Shown here one piece after another: positions 8,591 through 29,430 of a stretch of DNA of 31,389 nt. Both the position numbers and the translations under genes were made by a program. Source of the DNA: a virus; the IMG/VR virus record IMGVR_UViG_3300034096_000084, positions 1 through 31,389 of that record; one strand, 5' to 3'. The notes under the pieces are model-generated. The model was not told the origin of the DNA. It did not search any database and saw only the letters and a program-made list of their open reading frames with translations. Within the stretch, counting starts at the first letter, position 1. Each line of letters opens with the position of its first letter.

Positions 8591-9901
8591 GTGCCGAATG
8601 CTCGTCATAATCAAAAACACACCGGTAGAACTACCAGACCTGGAAGCAGAGATATTGCTCCGCTGGGGAGTAGCCAACTTGCCAGAGCAAGCAGACCTTC
8701 CTCTGCCGAATCGTTACGAATCCTCTGGTACTCGAACGCCCCGTTCGCCCCAACAGGGTACGGAACCCAAACAGCGCAAGTCGTCCAAAGGCTCATCAAA
8801 CAAAAACACGAAGTAGCCATCCATGCGATGTACGGCATTGAGGGCATGGCTTCTATTTGGAATGGGATAAAACTTTACCCAAGAGGGATGTCACCATATT
8901 CCGATGATGTGCTTGTTGCACATTGGATGGATTGGGCGAATGGCAATCGTGATATTCCTGCGATGTTGATGACGTTGTTTGATGTGTGGGTGTTGAAGTC
9001 ACCATCGTTGGATCAGGTTCCGAATATCGCTTCGTGGGTTCCTATCGATCATGCTCCTTGTCCACCAGAGGTGGTGTCGTGGTGTAAGCGTCCGAATGTG
9101 AAACCGATTGCGATGTCTAAGTTTGGTTTGGACATGTTGCAGAATGCGGGTGTTGATGCGATGTATGCGCCTCATGCGTTTGAGGATGTGTTTGTTCCTA
9201 CACACAAGTTAAACAATGGTCGTGGTGAGTTCACCGGCAGACAGCTCATGGAAGTTGATGAGGACAGGTTTGTTGTGATGATGAACGCTGCGAACAAAGG
9301 TCAGAACCCTTCACGCAAGTCCTTCGGTGAGAACATTCTGGCGTTCGCTATCTTCGCTCAAGACCGTCCTGATGCTTTGTTGTATCTACACACGGAGCGG
9401 GATGGTGCGATGGGTGGTATCAATCTCGTTCATCTGCTGGAGGCGTGTGGCGTGAAGAAGGAGCAATACAAGATTGTTGACCCTTACGCCTATCGGACTG
9501 GTTTCCCGCAGCAGGCGTTGGCTGCGTTGTACACCGCTTCGGATGTGCTGTTGGCTTGCTCGATGGGTGAGGGTTTCGGTATCCCTGTTATCGAGGCTCA
9601 GGCCTGCGGTACACGGGTCATCGTTTCTGACTACACCGCTCAGCCTGAGTTGGTTGGGGTTGGGTCAGCTGTGGCGATTCAACCGTTCTGGGATAGCCAT
9701 CAGAAGTCATGGTTCTGCACCCCATCCGTACCATCCATCGTAGAGGCTCTGATTGAGGCCTACGAAGCCCCTAGAGGCACGTCAGACGAGGCTGTGGCCT
9801 TTGCTGACCAATACCGAGCAGACAAGGTTTATGACGCTTACTGGAAACCAATCATGAAGGAGTTGTCGGAATGGTGCCAGTCATCATCGTCCCCGTCCTA
9901 A
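8591..9901 (+). CDS. Glycosyltransferase, GT-B fold (GT4-like)
   Basis: Up to 436 residues. The recognisable enzyme begins near residue 42, where LRILWYSNAPFAPTGYG forms the first Rossmann strand and the Gly loop. The C-terminal half has the sugar-nucleotide site EGFGIPVIEA with E327 and E335 (the EX7E motif of GT4 enzymes), followed by an Ala-Cys-Gly-Thr segment. It should transfer a sugar from an activated donor to an acceptor; a virion protein is the likely acceptor because the gene lies next to the capsid gene. The only usual start before the core is GTG 8591, which makes the first 40 residues the out-of-frame reading of another ORF. The next ATG (8828) would remove the first strand. Start assignment is therefore uncertain. 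Confidence 0.85.
   Translation: MPNARHNQKHTGRTTRPGSRDIAPLGSSQLARASRPSSAESLRILWYSNAPFAPTGYGTQTAQVVQRLIKQKHEVAIHAMYGIEGMASIWNGIKLYPRGMSPYSDDVLVAHWMDWANGNRDIPAMLMTLFDVWVLKSPSLDQVPNIASWVPIDHAPCPPEVVSWCKRPNVKPIAMSKFGLDMLQNAGVDAMYAPHAFEDVFVPTHKLNNGRGEFTGRQLMEVDEDRFVVMMNAANKGQNPSRKSFGENILAFAIFAQDRPDALLYLHTERDGAMGGINLVHLLEACGVKKEQYKIVDPYAYRTGFPQQALAALYTASDVLLACSMGEGFGIPVIEAQACGTRVIVSDYTAQPELVGVGSAVAIQPFWDSHQKSWFCTPSVPSIVEALIEAYEAPRGTSDEAVAFADQYRADKVYDAYWKPIMKELSEWCQSSSSPS
8598..8816 (+). CDS. Small protein overlapping the glycosyltransferase 5' end
   Basis: A 72-residue ORF whose first ~40 residues look like a real acidic protein (MLVIIKNTPVELPDLEAEI, then a Leu/Trp-rich helix), whereas the same DNA read in the glycosyltransferase frame gives basic, low-complexity sequence. 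AAGGAG at 8579-8584 lies 13 bases before ATG 8598, somewhat far, and 6 bases before the GTG 8591 of the other frame. The last ~30 residues are Ser/Lys-rich and overlap true glycosyltransferase sequence, so this end may be fortuitous. It may instead be the genuine N-terminus of the glycosyltransferase, joined by a frameshift (see findings). Confidence 0.5.
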   Translation: MLVIIKNTPVELPDLEAEILLRWGVANLPEQADLPLPNRYESSGTRTPRSPQQGTEPKQRKSSKGSSNKNTK

Positions 9902-10536
9902 ACAGGTATGACCTACTAGAACGCTGCTTGCAGTCCATCGACTATCCGGTGGAAACACTCATCGTCATCGACAATGGTGGTCAGTCCACGTTGCATGATT
10001 GGCCTTGGGTGATTGATCGTCGCCATGTCAAGAACTATCACGTCTGGTCAATGCCCACGAACCTCGGTGTCGCTCCATCATGGAACCTCGGCATCAAAGC
10101 AACACCTCACGCTGAAGGCTGGATCATCCTGAACTCTGATGCGTTCTTTGAGCCTGGACAGTTAGAAGTTTTCTACAAAGATTGCAAATCTGATTCGGTG
10201 ACATTAACTGAGGCTCAGCCTGGTTGGTCTTGTGCGTGGATTGGGTCTGAGGTGATTGCCAAGGTTGGGTTGTTTTCGGAATGTTATGTTCCCGCCTACT
10301 TCGAGGACAACGATTTTCAGGAACGAGCGCAACGGCTCAACGTGCAGTTCTGGACTTCTGACGCTGGGATAGTCCACGACAATTCGTCTACGCTTTTATC
10401 AGCACCAGAGTTACAAGAAAAGAATGCAAAAAGTTTTTCTGCCAATGGTGCGCTTCATGCGATGCGTTGGCAGTCAGGTCTTCCCGATGCGGGTCATTGG
10501 GATTTAACACGAAGGAGAGAATTGGGATGGGATTGA
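9871..10536 (+). CDS. Glycosyltransferase family 2
   Basis: A 221-residue GT-A-fold enzyme. It opens with the strand VPVIIVPVLNRYDLLERCLQ, has NLGVAPSWNLGI near residues 64-75 and a metal-binding Asn-Ser-Asp (N88-D90, the DxD equivalent) in ILNSDAFFEPG. Downstream are an acceptor-side Tyr-Phe-Glu-Asp-Asn-Asp (about 146-151) and a His-Asp near 171. GT2 proteins add sugars from nucleotide donors. It overlaps the previous gene by 31 bases and has an AAGGAG about 8 bases before ATG 9871. With its neighbours it forms a compact modification cassette. Confidence 0.88.
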   Translation: MVPVIIVPVLNRYDLLERCLQSIDYPVETLIVIDNGGQSTLHDWPWVIDRRHVKNYHVWSMPTNLGVAPSWNLGIKATPHAEGWIILNSDAFFEPGQLEVFYKDCKSDSVTLTEAQPGWSCAWIGSEVIAKVGLFSECYVPAYFEDNDFQERAQRLNVQFWTSDAGIVHDNSSTLLSAPELQEKNAKSFSANGALHAMRWQSGLPDAGHWDLTRRRELGWD

Positions 10537-11195
10537 AAGAACACTATGACCCGATGGACGACTACGAGAATCTGCATGAAGGAGAGACCATCTATGTTCT
10601 CGGCTCAGGGGCAACACTCGACTATCTGACACCAGACTTCTTTGACGACAAGCTGACCATCGCAGTCAACTTCGTTGGCTCAGTATTTGGGTTGAAGGGT
10701 TACTACTGTTTCAGCCACTATCACGAAGACGCTCAGCATGAGGCGAAACGTGAGGACTGTATTGGTGCCTTTACCCCTGAGCGTGAGCATGGTACTGATG
10801 GGGTGTTTGCTGGATGTTCAGGGAATCTGACCACGTTCGGTACTCGCACCGGCAGACCAGGCACATCCTTTGACCCTCACGATAAAGATTGGCCTGTGCT
10901 GTCAGGGCAGTTGACTATTGGCTCGTCAAGCATTCATGGGGCGATGCACTTGGCAGCGCACATGGGAGCGAAGTTCATTGTCTTGGTTGGGGCTGACTGT
11001 GGTTCGCTTGGTGGTCGTGACAGGGTTGATGGGTATGTGCCAGGTGATTCCCATTGGGCTTTATACGAGATGCACCTTCGAGCGATGAAGCAACGGTTGT
11101 GGGATGTGTACTCATGTCAGGTGTATTCGTTGAACCCTTTTGTGAACTATTCCCTTGAGGGTGTTCAGTATCGTGGCTTCTCTTCAATCAACTAG
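10527..11195 (+). CDS. DUF115/MptE-like protein of the glycosylation cassette
   Basis: A 222-residue protein. ETIYVLGSGATLDYL (residues 20-34) is a nucleotide-binding-like strand and Gly loop. Later, GSSSIHGAMHLAAHMGAKFIVLVGADCG (about 132-159, shown here only as the start and end of the segment) matches the plan of DUF115/MptE-type proteins, where a helix leads into a strand ending in Gly-x-Asp. Proteins of this group occur with sugar-transfer genes, including flagellin glycosylation, so I infer a role in making or attaching the glycan. ATG 10527 is chosen over upstream starts because AAGGAG at 10512-10517 lies nine bases before it. It overlaps the GT2 gene by 10 bases. Confidence 0.6.
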   Translation: MGLKEHYDPMDDYENLHEGETIYVLGSGATLDYLTPDFFDDKLTIAVNFVGSVFGLKGYYCFSHYHEDAQHEAKREDCIGAFTPEREHGTDGVFAGCSGNLTTFGTRTGRPGTSFDPHDKDWPVLSGQLTIGSSSIHGAMHLAAHMGAKFIVLVGADCGSLGGRDRVDGYVPGDSHWALYEMHLRAMKQRLWDVYSCQVYSLNPFVNYSLEGVQYRGFSSIN

Positions 11196-13198: not shown

Positions 13199-13720
13199 AT
13201 GGCGCAAGCAATAGGTAGAGCAGGACAAGTAACAATCACCGGTGGCAACGATGCCATCCAGATTGTTGGTATTGCAAAGTTCTTGCGTGAGGCTTCTAAA
13301 GCCAATGAAAACTTTGATAAAGAGATGCGTAAGGCATCCCGCCAGGTGGCAGCGAATATAATCATCAAGGCTAAGGCTGAGGCTGCGACTGTGACTCGTT
13401 CTCGTCAAGCGATTCAGGTGATGAGAGGAATGAAGGCAAGGTCTGACCGTATCCCTACGGCTTCTCTTAGCCATAAATCGCCATTCATTTCTAAGTCCAA
13501 CCCAAGCAAGAACCGCAAGAAACCCGTGACCAGAGGCGACGTGTTCTTTGGTGCCGAGTTTGGTGGTGGGGCTAGACCAACAACAAGGCAATTCTTGAGG
13601 CATCGTTATAGGTCTGGTTATTTCTTTTGGCCTGCTGTCCGTAAGGAAAAAGAGAATATCGCTAGGGAGTATTTGGACGCTATTCAGAACGTGTTGAACA
13701 CCCTCAAAGATAAGGCTTGA
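13199..13720 (+). CDS. HK97 gp10-like tail or head-tail joining protein
   Basis: A 173-residue basic protein. The N-terminal half has helices with a Phe-Leu-Arg-Glu and a Lys/Arg/Ala-rich stretch. The C-terminal part has FFGAEFGGGARPTTRQF followed by His-Arg-x-x-x-Gly-Tyr-Phe-Phe-Trp-Pro-Ala, then a helix. A Glu-Phe-Gly turn followed by an aromatic-Pro-Ala and a final helix is the plan of HK97 gp10 family proteins, which act in tail completion. Its place after the chaperone is slightly later than usual for that family, so the assignment is moderate. Confidence 0.6.
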   Translation: MAQAIGRAGQVTITGGNDAIQIVGIAKFLREASKANENFDKEMRKASRQVAANIIIKAKAEAATVTRSRQAIQVMRGMKARSDRIPTASLSHKSPFISKSNPSKNRKKPVTRGDVFFGAEFGGGARPTTRQFLRHRYRSGYFFWPAVRKEKENIAREYLDAIQNVLNTLKDKA

Positions 13721-13761
13721 CTTCGGCTAGGTTTCCTGTACCCTTCTAGGTAGGAGGGGTT

Positions 13762-14472
13762 ATGGCAGTTCTGTTTAAGGATGTGAAGTCTATTTATCCG
13801 AAGCGGTTCGCTTCGTCTTGGGAACAACTCAAAGAGCTGTTGTCGTTCCATGAGGAGAACGCTGTCAAGGCTACGGGTGCGTTGTGGTCTCCGGTTGAGT
13901 ACGACCAGGGTACGACTCGTGGTAACCGTAATGTGCGCTTTGTTGAGGCGTTGGTTGTTGACATGGACGGTGAAGCGTTTGATGAGGCACGGCTTGATGG
14001 GTTGGAATGGTTTGCGTATTCGACTTATTCGCATCGCTTAGATGATCCTCACTATCACCTTGTTTTGCCGTTAGCGGAGAAGGTGCCTGCTTCGTTGTGG
14101 CGTGTGGTGTGGCAGGAGTTGCATGAGCGAATCAACCTGCGTGGTGATGAGGCAACCAAAGACCCTGCTCGTATTTTCTATCTACCTCAACATGCACCGG
14201 ATCAGCCGTTTGAGTTCCATGAGGGTCATGGTGCGCTGTTGGATTCATCATTCAGGTTGGATGTTGAACCTGTCATCAATCCTGTGTCGCCTCGCTCGAA
14301 GCAGGTGCGTCAACCTCGTCAGCGTCGTGCTGGTGCAGAGATATTGTCTGAGGCTTGGTGGAATGAGCCTGTAGATATTTCTCGTTGGGATGGCCTGTCG
14401 GGGAAGGCTTTGTATTCTGCGATGCTTGACGAGTTTGTTGCTTTGCGGAATAGGCTGTCTGTTATTGAGTAG
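13762..14472 (+). CDS. Archaeo-eukaryotic-primase-like protein within the tail operon
   Basis: A 236-residue protein with the pattern of AEP-type replication proteins of plasmids and phages. ALVVDMDG has D67-x-D69 (motif I, metal binding). FAYSTYSHR (about residues 84-92) is followed by HYHLVLPLAEKVP (97-109), the motif II region with H97/H99. Residues 134-142 read DPARIFYLP, a common closing motif of this group. The last ~60 residues are basic and then helical. Such proteins make primers or start replication. It has a strong ribosome-binding site (TAGGAGGGG before ATG 13762). The position between tail chaperone/gp10-like genes and the tape measure is unexpected, and the genome carries another PrimPol at 29433. 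Activity and role are unknown. Confidence 0.7.
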   Translation: MAVLFKDVKSIYPKRFASSWEQLKELLSFHEENAVKATGALWSPVEYDQGTTRGNRNVRFVEALVVDMDGEAFDEARLDGLEWFAYSTYSHRLDDPHYHLVLPLAEKVPASLWRVVWQELHERINLRGDEATKDPARIFYLPQHAPDQPFEFHEGHGALLDSSFRLDVEPVINPVSPRSKQVRQPRQRRAGAEILSEAWWNEPVDISRWDGLSGKALYSAMLDEFVALRNRLSVIE

Positions 14473-14481
14473 AATCTTCGC

Positions 14482-17073
14482 ATGGCTGGTGAGCGCACGT
14501 TCGTTGTTAAGTTTATTTCCGACATCCTCGGTGCGACCAAAGGCATTAAGAAGGTCGGTGATGACCTAGGCACTTTAGGGAAACAGGTTGACACGAACCT
14601 TGGTTCGAAGTTCAAGAGCGTCATGCCGTCTTTCAAAGCGGTTGCTGTCGCAGGAACCGCAGCGTTCGCTGCCGTTAGTGCTGCCTTATATAAATCCGTT
14701 GAGGCTGCTATCGAATCAGAGGCAGAGCAAAACAGGCTCAGGCAAATCTTACAAACCACCACAGGTGCATCAGATGAGCAAATTGATTCTCTAAACGAAC
14801 AAGCAAAAGCGTTACAGAATCTTGGTGTTGTTTCCGCTGGAACCACCTCAGTCGTTCAGGCACAGTTGGCAACCTTTGACCTTTCAGTTGACACAATCAA
14901 AACGCTGACCCCAGCAATTCTTGATTATGTAACAGCAGAAAAGGGTGCTAGTGCTACAGCGGACGATTTCAAATCATCCACGAACGGACTAGCCCAAGCC
15001 CTACAGGGCAACTTTGCGTCACTAACTAAGACTGGTTTCGTCCTCGATGATGCAACAAAGAAAACAATCAAATCTGGCACAGAGAGCGAACGAGCTGCTG
15101 CTTTGGTTGCAGTCTTGGGTTCTACCTATGAGGGTTTCAACGAAAGTCTTCGAGATACACCAGAAGGTCAACTACAAGCTCTACAGAACGATTTTAAGGA
15201 TTTGTCTACAGCGGTTGGAATTGCGTTGCTTCCAGCCTTGGGTAGTGCTGTCGGGTTCCTGAATGATTCAGTTGTTCCAGCATTCCGAAACTTTGCTACC
15301 GCTTTAGAGGAGGGTGGGGTTTCTGGCGGGTTTGATTTCATCGCCACTAGGTTCAAAGAGGCAGCACCGAAAGTCTTGGAGGCGTTGGGGCAACTCATCA
15401 CTCAGGCGGTTGAATGGATTGGGACTTCAGGTTTGCCGATGCTGTTTGCCGGTATCAGTCAACTTGCTGATTCTTTGACTGGTTGGATCGAGCCTCGAAT
15501 CCCTATGTTCATTAACGAGTTGACTAAGTTTTTGATGGCTGGATACCAATGGATTTACACGAAGGGCTTGCCACAGTTGTTAAGTGCTGTTCAGTCTTTG
15601 GGTGACACGCTTGCCAGTTTTGTTGGCAAGGCTGCACGTCAGTTACCAGCACAGCTCGTTGACATGATTGCCACTATTGGGAAGTGGGTACTCTCAGACG
15701 GAATCCCAGCCGTTCTTGCTATGGGTGCAAGGCTTGGTGGTTCATTGATTAAGTGGACTGCAACGATTGGTGGACAGTTGATCGCTGGTCTTGCTGGTGC
15801 AGTTGTTGCTTTGGTTGCTGCGATACCTGACATGTTTGTCGGGTTTGTTAAAGGTATTACCAACATCGCTGTCAACACGGTGAAAGGTTTTGTCGGCAAG
15901 TTTGATGAGATGAAAACAGCGTTGGCAAATGTTGCTGTATCGGTTGTCAACACTCTGATCGATGTATTCAACAAGATTCCGCTAGTTCCCAATATCCCTA
16001 AAATCACTTTGGATACTAAGAAACTTGGCGCACAGGTTGGTTTGACCAGTACACAGTTACAGGCCGTCAACGAAAGATTCGATCAAGTGAACGGAACTTT
16101 GAAGGTTGGTTCTAAAGAATTGAACGCTTTCGAAGAAGCAAGCAACGATACTGGTGCTGCTACTACCGGTGCTGCTAAGACTCTTAAGACGGCTAAAGAA
16201 AAGTTGGAACTATATACAGGTGCTTTGGATAAAAGCACAAAAGCTAAGGACAGGTTTAATAAGTCTCAAAAGGCTGAGGGTAAAGCTCTCACGTCGTTGA
16301 CTGATGCGAATACGGACTTGGCTAACGCTCAGGCTAGGTTGGCTCAGATTGAGCGTGGTTTTGGTGTTGGTTCACCGGAGGCGTTGGCTGCGCAGGCTGA
16401 GTTGGCTAAGGCTCAGCGTTCTCAGGAGCGGGCTGTTTATGCGGTTGAGGAGGCTGTGTTCTCTGTTGCTGATGCTGAGAAGAATCTTGCTGAGGTTCGT
16501 AAAGACCCTGCTTCTTCACCGATGGATATTCGTCGTGCTGAGATTAGTTTGGCTGAGTCCAAGTTGTCGGTGTCGGATGCTACCGATTCACAAATCGAAT
16601 CCACTAAGGAATTGAATGATCAGCAACGGTTGCTGAATGAGGCAATCTTTGGTGCGACTGTTGGTTCGATTGTTTATGACCAAGCGTTGCGTGATGTTGA
16701 GGATGCAACCCGTCAACAGGTCTCAGCGTATGAGGCTTGGGAGGATGCGGTTACTAACACGAAGACCGCTCAGGATGAGTTCAACAAGTCGTTGCAGGCG
16801 ACAGCTGATTTGATTAAGAAGTATCCGAAGGTTTTGGGTGGGATGCCTAACCCGATGGCGAACCTTGTTCCTGATAGCACTTTGGCAAATAATGCTGGAA
16901 GCCTGTTTAATGGTGGCGGTATGGGGAATGTCAACATCGAGGTCAATGCTGGGTTGGGTGCTAGTGGGATTGAGATTGGTCAGGAAATTGACCAGTATTT
17001 GCGGGAGTATCTTGGCTTCTCTGGTCAGACGTTCTCGTTTGGTTCTATCGGGAACTTTGTTGGCGTTAGATAA
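14482..17073 (+). CDS. Tape measure protein
   Basis: 863 residues, the longest gene here. It starts with a basic/helical region, followed by a hydrophobic Ala-rich segment (about residues 52-70), a tape-measure core with SLTKTGFVLDDATKK, and several membrane-like hydrophobic stretches between ~395 and 460. A long coiled-coil region (about 560-790) is rich in Glu/Lys/Ala with repeated Ala-Glu-x-x-Leu units, and a glycine-rich end follows. The protein sets tail length and passes into the host envelope during DNA entry. At the usual ~1.5 angstrom per residue the tail would be roughly 130 nm, an estimate only. The stop overlaps the next gene as TAATG. Confidence 0.95.
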   Translation: MAGERTFVVKFISDILGATKGIKKVGDDLGTLGKQVDTNLGSKFKSVMPSFKAVAVAGTAAFAAVSAALYKSVEAAIESEAEQNRLRQILQTTTGASDEQIDSLNEQAKALQNLGVVSAGTTSVVQAQLATFDLSVDTIKTLTPAILDYVTAEKGASATADDFKSSTNGLAQALQGNFASLTKTGFVLDDATKKTIKSGTESERAAALVAVLGSTYEGFNESLRDTPEGQLQALQNDFKDLSTAVGIALLPALGSAVGFLNDSVVPAFRNFATALEEGGVSGGFDFIATRFKEAAPKVLEALGQLITQAVEWIGTSGLPMLFAGISQLADSLTGWIEPRIPMFINELTKFLMAGYQWIYTKGLPQLLSAVQSLGDTLASFVGKAARQLPAQLVDMIATIGKWVLSDGIPAVLAMGARLGGSLIKWTATIGGQLIAGLAGAVVALVAAIPDMFVGFVKGITNIAVNTVKGFVGKFDEMKTALANVAVSVVNTLIDVFNKIPLVPNIPKITLDTKKLGAQVGLTSTQLQAVNERFDQVNGTLKVGSKELNAFEEASNDTGAATTGAAKTLKTAKEKLELYTGALDKSTKAKDRFNKSQKAEGKALTSLTDANTDLANAQARLAQIERGFGVGSPEALAAQAELAKAQRSQERAVYAVEEAVFSVADAEKNLAEVRKDPASSPMDIRRAEISLAESKLSVSDATDSQIESTKELNDQQRLLNEAIFGATVGSIVYDQALRDVEDATRQQVSAYEAWEDAVTNTKTAQDEFNKSLQATADLIKKYPKVLGGMPNPMANLVPDSTLANNAGSLFNGGGMGNVNIEVNAGLGASGIEIGQEIDQYLREYLGFSGQTFSFGSIGNFVGVR

Positions 17074-18326
17074 TGTCTAGGCAAGCGATATGGGGGGAAA
17101 CCCTTAAGGTCAATTTGGATGTCGGATTCAAGACCAACATCTTCAAACTTAACTCCAGCCTTCTTGATGGTGAGGACACCCTTGAAGGTTCCACAGAGTT
17201 CGTAGATATTACTGACTATGTTCAGAACATCACGATCAATCGTGGACGCACCAACCAGCTAGACACATTCAACACCGGAACACTTGCCATCCTCGCTGAT
17301 GACCGTGCATCTGGCAGGTCATTCGACCCGTTGAACACAGACTCACCTTGGTATCAGGGAGACTTGGGTATCGCCCCACGTCGAGCGATTGAGGTTTATG
17401 GCGGTTCTGCTGGAACGGCTGCGATGTTCAAGGGTTACATCTACGACTTGAACATTGAATACGATGAGCCACAGTTATCGTCAGCACAGATTCTCGCTGT
17501 TGACGCTTTGGCACAGTTAGCCCAGACCAACCTTGTCGGGTTCAACCCTTCGCAACAGCTCACGTCTGAGCGGGTTGACGCAATCTTGTCAAGGAATGAA
17601 GTGTCTTGGTCAACTGCGTTGCGTGAGATTAACCCTGGTTTGGCAACGGTTGGAACGGTTGCGTATGAGGACAACACGAATGCTTTGGAGGCTTTGCAGG
17701 CTTTGCAGGTTTCGGAGAATGGTCGGTTCTATGCGTCCCGTGATGGGATGCTGGTGTTCGATCCTCGTGTGCAGGTTTCGTTTGGGACGGCTGTGGCGGT
17801 GTTGGGTGGGACTGCTGCGACTGATGTTCCGATTCGTTCGTTGAATAACTTGTATGGTGCTGAGACTGTGTTGAATCGTATTTCGGTTCAGGTGCAGGGT
17901 TCGAGTGTGTTGAGTGTGGTGAATGGTACGGCATCACAAGCTGAGTATGGGATCAAGAACTTTGCTCTAAACAATTTGCCGTTGGTGAATGATGCTGCGG
18001 GTTCCGCTTTGGCTGTTGCCTTACTTGACAGGTATGGTGAGCCAGAGGTGGTGTTCAACGAGACCAGCGTGTTGATGAACGGGTTGTCTTCGGCTCAACA
18101 AGAGTTGATGGCCTCGTTGGAGATTGGCGATATTTTGGCGGTGGAGAAACGGTTCGCTGTTGGTACACCTTCGGTGGTTCGACAGAACGTGGTGGTTGAA
18201 TCTATCCGTCATCAGATCGCCCCGTCACGGCATGAAGTGTTTTTAGGGTTGGGTCAGGTGCAGTTGGTGTTGCCATTTATACTTGATACCAGCGAACTTG
18301 ATGACTCTACTTATGCGGTAACATAG
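17073..18326 (+). CDS. Minor tail protein (distal tail/baseplate)
   Basis: A 417-residue protein directly after the tape measure gene. The segment DITDYVQNITINRGRTNQLD (about residues 46-65) followed by Gly-Thr-Leu-Ala-Ile-Leu-Ala-Asp-Asp-Arg and Phe-Asp-Pro-Leu-Asn is typical of minor tail proteins in actinobacterial siphophages, which form the distal tail or a tail hub. The remainder looks beta-rich with no enzymatic motif. Position and length fit the family. Confidence 0.78.
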   Translation: MSRQAIWGETLKVNLDVGFKTNIFKLNSSLLDGEDTLEGSTEFVDITDYVQNITINRGRTNQLDTFNTGTLAILADDRASGRSFDPLNTDSPWYQGDLGIAPRRAIEVYGGSAGTAAMFKGYIYDLNIEYDEPQLSSAQILAVDALAQLAQTNLVGFNPSQQLTSERVDAILSRNEVSWSTALREINPGLATVGTVAYEDNTNALEALQALQVSENGRFYASRDGMLVFDPRVQVSFGTAVAVLGGTAATDVPIRSLNNLYGAETVLNRISVQVQGSSVLSVVNGTASQAEYGIKNFALNNLPLVNDAAGSALAVALLDRYGEPEVVFNETSVLMNGLSSAQQELMASLEIGDILAVEKRFAVGTPSVVRQNVVVESIRHQIAPSRHEVFLGLGQVQLVLPFILDTSELDDSTYAVT

Positions 18327-29178: not shown

Positions 29179-29430
29179 ATGAAAACTAAAACACGCACAC
29201 GCAACGGATACATCTATCCCGCCACAGCCCTACTCAAACAGTTCCCAGACGACATGTGGGCATCAACAATCGCTGAACATCTTGGCGTTGGTAGAGCTGC
29301 AATCCAAACATGGCGAGAAGGCAACACATGTCTTGACCAATGGCGAGCAGATAAGTATGCGTGTCTGCTGGGGAAACATCCGTCAGAGATTTGGGTCAAC
29401 TGGTTTGATGAAGTGGAGATTGCCTCGTGA
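29179..29430 (+). CDS. Helix-turn-helix DNA-binding protein
   Basis: 83 residues; GGAGG seven bases before ATG 29179. The central segment STIAEHLGVGRAAIQTWREG (about residues 29-48) is a good helix-turn-helix with recognition helix Arg-Ala-Ala-Ile-Gln-Thr-Trp. The following Trp-Arg-Ala-Asp-Lys-Tyr-Ala-Cys helix and His-Pro-Ser-Glu-Ile-Trp resemble Cro/XRE-like small regulators. It is the gene just before the replicase, overlapping a possible GTG start by four bases, so it may control replication or bind the origin. Confidence 0.7.
   Translation: MKTKTRTRNGYIYPATALLKQFPDDMWASTIAEHLGVGRAAIQTWREGNTCLDQWRADKYACLLGKHPSEIWVNWFDEVEIAS

Follow-up and report, generated by a model that had tools for sequence, protein, structure and literature searches.

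Stand-alone, helicase-free primases of the archaeo-eukaryotic primase (AEP) type are known from the Vibrio phages henriette 12B8 and V6Aob and from T4-like contigs, and belong to family phrog_9765. Those that were checked are located in replication modules: the stand-alone primases of 310–350 aa lay between the genes for family B DNA polymerase and UvsX recombinase, and the homologue in henriette 12B8 is surrounded by genes for the clamp, clamp loader, SSB, helicase and UvsY. On several T4-like contigs (L407, L390, L383, L392 and others), stand-alone AEPs near family B polymerase and UvsX-like genes apparently take the place of a gp61-type primase. The AEP domain also occurs in helicase-bearing proteins, such as the VapE-type primase-helicases (PF05272), and in the PrimPol of cyanophage S-2L, which additionally possesses PriCT-2 and a further C-terminal domain. 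With respect to gene control, the T4 genes e, soc and I-TevI have a hairpin that hides the Shine–Dalgarno sequence on long transcripts, with a promoter in its 5′ arm, and homing endonuclease genes inserted in T4 carry embedded promoters of the genes downstream (PMC3014915, PMC2988022).

A gene of this family was found between tail genes in IMG/VR record IMGVR_UViG_3300034096_000084, of which positions 1 to 31 389 (31 389 nt, ‘the window’) were analysed. Given its intact active site, its single and lasting insertion and its apparent own switch, this tail AEP is probably a second replication enzyme in the tail operon and not a tail protein. The full statement, that the gene encodes a functional second primase, carried as a moron-like cassette and uncoupled from the tail operon, is favoured here with a little over even confidence. 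The AEP family itself is already known; what is new is the location, the coexistence with a second AEP and the putative control elements embedded there (Table 1). The locus clearly exemplifies long-term fixation of a replication-type enzyme within a tail operon, and the phage group concerned is represented by hundreds of IMG/VR contigs. Family, predicted fold, retained catalytic residues, purifying selection, the one insertion and the co-occurrence with a PrimPol–AAA_25 gene were read from the sequences themselves; the putative promoters and hairpin are argued from consensus and conservation.

Table 1. Features of the tail AEP locus and of the second AEP gene, in window coordinates
Feature	Position	Strand	Basis or remark
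gp10-like tail gene, upstream neighbour	13199..13720	+	Name from weak PHROG match, E 0.057
TTGACT box, −35-like, overlapping gp10-like stop codon	13717..13722	+	TTGAC kept in all of 64 distinct upstream regions and in the 61–64 % clades
TACCCT box, weak −10-like (TAnnnT), 16 nt from TTGACT; also hairpin 5′ arm	13739..13744	+	Constant spacing
RNA hairpin burying Shine–Dalgarno (AGGAGG, 13752–13757)	13740..13760	+	Predicted, −10.4 kcal/mol
Stand-alone AEP primase gene (236 aa)	13762..14472	+	PHROG phrog_9765, AlphaFold2 model, Foldseek
Y47, candidate steric-gate tyrosine	13900..13902	+	Invariant in 57 tail-position AEPs
Motif I LVVDMDG (D67, D69)	13951..13971	+	Invariant over 42 diverse AEPs; exception L354
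Motif II H97-Y-H99	14050..14058	+	H at both sites in 57/57 tail-position AEPs
Motif III/nucleotide-binding region GDxxTKDxARIFYLP (D129, T132, R137, Y140, P142)	14146..14187	+	Invariant, 42 diverse AEPs
Lineage-specific C-terminal tail: basic linker and WW...helical segment	14308..14469	+	Absent from VapE-type and T4-like AEPs
TAGAAT box: AEP stop codon plus AAT, leaderless −10-like, 6 nt before tape-measure ATG	14470..14475	+	
Tape-measure gene, downstream neighbour	14482..17073	+	PHROG tape measure, E 5e-8
PrimPol (PF09250) fused to AAA_25 helicase, second AEP of the genome	29427..31388	+	Pfam E 5e-39 and 5e-22

Family, predicted fold and active site

The ORF starting at 13762 was matched by the DNA primase profile phrog_9765 (E 3.5e-15, residues 31–163), which bears out the AEP primase identity proposed in the first-pass annotation, and by the VapE-type family phrog_256 (E 3e-9). 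Pfam, NCBIfam and PADLOC profile searches with the protein gave no match; in the absence of a Pfam match it falls outside the PF09250 PrimPol family, of which the gene at 29427 is a member, and at 236 aa it lacks the VapE/D5-like C-terminal helicase domain. An AlphaFold2 model built on an alignment of 42 diverse AEPs had a mean pLDDT of 82.1 (an earlier model from a shallow alignment reached 62), with means of 86–97 for the 10-residue blocks of residues 1–160 and low to moderate confidence in the C-terminal tail. When the model was compared with the PDB by Foldseek, the S-2L PrimPol AEP domain (6zp9) ranked first (E 1.4e-4, probability 1.00), followed by weak-scoring matches to LigD polymerase, CAPP and AsfvPrimPol, all of which are AEPs; PDB searches by sequence found no real relative. 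At E ≤ 1e-3 the model also matched 47 viral predicted structures, of which those with names were mostly VapE-, NrS-1- or primase-type. The best of these viral matches (62 % identity) was an uncharacterized protein, which is how databases list the members of this family.

Taken with the dN/dS ratio and the full synteny in relatives (both below), the PHROG match and the predicted AEP fold indicate that 13762–14472 encodes a genuine AEP-family domain and more than a chance motif. A fold unrelated to AEPs, which the first-pass annotation had named as grounds for rejecting a primase, was not predicted by the models; this result, the alignment, the PHROG match and the Foldseek ranking rule out a non-AEP fold or chance motif.

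Residues 1 to approximately 182 of the protein aligned over their whole length with the AEP domain of VapE-type primase-helicases (20–28 % identity), including the post-domain ‘WPVSSR’ segment. With the phrog_9765 primases it shares a helicase-free AEP core and the motifs SGL.SP..Y, DxD and D..TKD.(S/A)R.FY.P; it differs from them in sequence (20–35 % identity), in location and in its unrelated C-terminus, and those primases are longer. Motif II is (K/R)xR in nearly all VapE-type (RxR) and T4-like relatives, and mostly so in the phrog_9765 primases, whereas the tail AEPs have HxH. Closest outside the tail lineage over the AEP domain were two AEP–AAA_25 fusions, L360 (38 % identity) and L352 (34 %), which unlike the tail AEP are helicase-fused proteins of 761–818 aa; the stand-alone 310–350 aa primases are also among the nearest outsiders. 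A scan with Vibrio primase peptides returned nothing.

All of the motif sequences picked out at first pass, D67-x-D69, HYHLVLPL (H97/H99) and DPARIFYLP, are present in the ORF. R53, D67, D69, T88, D129, T132, R137, Y140 and P142 were invariant across the 42 diverse AEPs, and H97, H99, D129, D134 and R137 were invariant in 57 aligned tail-position members. In the 42-sequence alignment the invariant acid of motif III was D129, not D134, and D129 is therefore most likely the third metal acid. On this basis the residues characteristic of the AEP superfamily (DxD/E in motif I, a basic residue in motif II and an acidic one in motif III) are represented by D67/D69, H99 and D129. The functional residues Y63, E85, D87, T112, H118, D146 and R157 of S-2L PrimPol (PMC8065100), which is the best solved-structure match at only about 9 % identity, have plausible counterparts in Y47, D67, D69, T88, H99, D129 and R137.

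Loss of the DxD and histidine residues in homologues had been put forward as a further argument against a primase, but D67, D69, H97, H99 and D129 were retained down to 44 % identity with the sole exception of L354. In this sequence motif I reads VVEDEEEK in place of VVDMDGES, a short swapped stretch that reflects either a misassembly or a genuine alteration of the active site. The median dN/dS for the tail AEP was about 0.14, consistent with purifying selection on the catalytic set D67, D69, H99, D129 and R137, and the enzyme is very probably catalytically active; together with the conserved catalytic residues this ratio leaves a degenerate or non-catalytic copy unsupported.

Gene order in relatives and origin of the insertion

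Placement between the gp10-like and tape-measure genes, as reported in the first-pass annotation, was confirmed both in the window and in a survey of relatives. A first IMG/VR scan gave 341 related stretches. In a synteny sample whose loci were picked by their neck protein, not by the AEP, the gene occupied this position in all 64 loci that reached the site, with mean identities of 90 % for the AEP, 75 % for the gp10-like protein and 60 % for the tape-measure protein. A motif pattern scan extended the relatives to 80, 61–64, 51 and 44 % identity, all with the gene at the same site, which was thus constant in viral contigs from 100 % down to 44 % identity; the replication-module location of phrog_9765-type genes was not found. 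The gp10-like gene preceded the AEP in every locus reaching that far, although in the deepest carrier, L411, the two are separated by three small ORFs without known function (reverse strand, about 1180–1750). No relative was detected in a scan of genome contigs, which therefore provided no host or prophage link. Over 14482–18326 of the window, the tape-measure gene and the next tail gene ranged from 26 to 100 % identity among relatives whose head and neck genes were more than 90 % alike, which suggests mosaic exchange of host-range parts.

The lineage consists of small aquatic phages with a probably actinobacterial host, to which the WhiB protein encoded by the phage points (PMC6802176). Pontimonas phage phiPsal1 is the closest isolate; it shares the gene order from the terminase to the tail genes, with 37–47 % identity for the best-kept genes, and has no AEP gene at the site. 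Of the more distant loci, 65 contain the preceding gene; some 40 of them continue into the next large ORF, and in these a single gene of about 170–250 aa fills the gap; in these approximately 40 wider relatives, phiPsal1 included, the gp10-like gene stands alone at the site. No AEP was found in 80 non-carrier loci or in 13 of their whole records, and in the non-carriers inspected the tape-measure start usually overlapped or abutted the preceding stop codon.

A tree of the neck (tail-connector) protein separated 20 carriers from 35 non-carriers by one branch (support 100/99). As all carriers lie on one side of this branch and the sites of the other relatives are empty, a single insertion followed by fixation is indicated; a gain without any later loss being seen is the most economical interpretation of this unrooted tree, which would also allow a single loss. 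The AEP is an extra gene, of one origin, between genes that are adjacent in relatives, so that the suggestion of a moron was upheld in the form of a moron-like insertion among tail genes. Recent acquisition was ruled out by the one-origin tree and by the base skew of the AEP gene, which matches the structural half of the genome.

Putative control elements on either side of the gene

Upstream of the gene, TTGAC and TACCCT are separated by a spacer of fixed length (16 nt) and variable sequence, and are followed by AGGAGG and the ATG. TTGAC was retained in L393 even though the gp10-like stop codon lies 7 nt upstream of it there. A consensus promoter scan limited to spacings of 16–18 nt missed TACCCT and gave no above-chance site at the AEP start; the TTGAC/TACCCT element was not seen in the 44 % clade, and a clear terminator was looked for but not found. 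In L411, TTGACC and TATAAT stand just past the gp10-like gene at the start of the cassette, at a distance of 19 nt that exceeds the limit of the scan.

The strong ribosome-binding site of the first-pass annotation is present as AGGAGG but is sequestered inside a predicted hairpin, the most stable of the 27 gene starts tested in the window. In the 61–64 % clades the stem sequence has changed while a hairpin of −10 to −15 kcal/mol persists, with the same boxes and spacing. The hairpin alone is not exceptional: its folding z-scores are modest (−1.4 to −2.4 on 24 nt and 0.2 on 69 nt), and 3.4 % of random 33-mers of the window fold as stably. This layout, predicted from sequence, would correspond to that of T4 e, soc and I-TevI, which encode other proteins in other hosts. 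On long late transcripts the ribosome-binding site of the AEP gene would be locked in the hairpin, whereas a short transcript starting just past TACCCT would lack the 5′ arm and so could be translated; synthesis of the AEP would thereby be decoupled from the tail operon. The hidden Shine–Dalgarno sequence and the conserved promoter-like boxes favour separate control, and the gene seems to have its own switch. The earlier statement that it is expressed with the late tail proteins is thus doubtful, as the 5′ arm of the conserved hairpin overlaps a promoter-like box.

At the other end of the gene, the AEP stop codon forms part of a TAGAAT box that is conserved in close relatives and in the 61–64 %, 44 % and L411 lineages, at least 9 nt before the tape-measure start in the 44 % clade and 6 nt before a GTG in L411, and was absent from ten inspected relatives lacking the AEP. 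In Corynebacterium, TAnnnT is usual at 3–11 nt before the transcription start and many mRNAs are leaderless (PMC3890552). The box may drive the tape-measure gene and so help to retain the insert. The locus illustrates how an insert might be shielded from a late operon and yet connected to it, and lends itself to a direct test of whether expression timing follows from the place of a gene in a phage operon.

The second AEP and possible roles of the tail AEP

The PrimPol of the genome, also reported at first pass, was confirmed as the PF09250–AAA_25 gene starting at 29427. Besides the window, all eight carrier records that were long enough had this PrimPol-helicase (48–94 % identity), and the seven non-carrier records all lacked it; the co-occurrence reflects a single-clade event and is therefore not independent evidence. 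Its motifs were intact in four aligned sequences spanning three clades, so that the tail AEP is no replacement for a dead enzyme, and compensation for an inactive PrimPol (P0003) was ruled out. The locus also bears on the reason for which a second AEP is retained by a phage that already has a PrimPol-helicase.

According to the favoured explanation, a small stand-alone AEP would have entered the ancestor of the lineage once, at the gp10-like/tape-measure junction, and then become fixed. It would prime or extend DNA in phage replication beside the PrimPol-helicase, a role suggested mainly by the replication-module context of its stand-alone homologues, and also by the fusion of other homologues to AAA_25 helicases. 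More tentatively, the phage may have a two-primase system in which embedded controls lock a stand-alone AEP into the tail operon, with a hairpin-gated promoter of its own upstream and its stop codon reused as the tape-measure promoter, and in which the enzyme is either switched independently or delivered with the tail for priming of the incoming genome.

Codon adaptation of the tail AEP to the MCP and tail tube genes was among the lowest in the window, which fits a low-copy enzyme somewhat better than an abundant virion part. Virion delivery, in which the AEP would be a late product that enters the virion, for instance together with the tape-measure protein, and is carried into the cell to prime or gap-fill the incoming genome, is possible but unsupported, and we consider it unlikely. 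The gene invariably adjoins the tape-measure gene, the C-terminal tail could serve as a docking segment, and injected polyvalent phage proteins include PrimPol domains (PMC5512222). The tail AEP, however, is a single-domain protein of 236 aa that lacks the peptidase and further domains usual in polyvalent proteins; low codon adaptation, a Shine–Dalgarno sequence buried on read-through mRNA and the much faster divergence of the tape-measure protein (see mean identities above) also speak against packaging. An equally improbable role is that of a late primase for concatemeric or recombination-dependent replication, made from the tail transcript after opening of the hairpin by ribosomes or an RNA-binding protein. 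The late-module location is as expected for such an enzyme, the third-codon skew is of the structural-half type (and the strongest there), and the hairpin could be an autoregulatory operator like those of T4 genes 32 and 43 (PMC3014915), but the conserved TTGAC-16-TACCCT spacing and the TATAAT at the start of the L411 cassette point to a promoter of its own.

Roles outside replication are less probable still. That the gene is a moron for counter-defence, host takeover or DNA-end repair, with its AEP chemistry put to a use distinct from replication priming, accords with the moron-like insertion, with the PrimPol already present in the phage and with L411, where the AEP ends a cassette behind the three small ORFs; we nevertheless regard it as quite improbable, given the lack of a PADLOC match, which also led us to reject a defence-system gene, and the location of stand-alone relatives in core replisome gene clusters. 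Reuse of the AEP fold for a non-catalytic, structural or regulatory job would be in keeping with the odd location and with the altered motif I of L354, and is the most improbable of these alternatives, hardly to be expected when no other relative examined, down to 44 % identity, departs from the catalytic residues and the dN/dS ratio is low.

Two further features of the window were recorded. At about 20000 the GC, AT and third-codon skews flip, although all genes lie on the + strand, which suggests a replication or transcription domain boundary near 20 kb. Between the capsid and neck genes (8591–11195) there are two glycosyltransferase genes, both common to phiPsal1, and an ORF with a weak sialyltransferase match.
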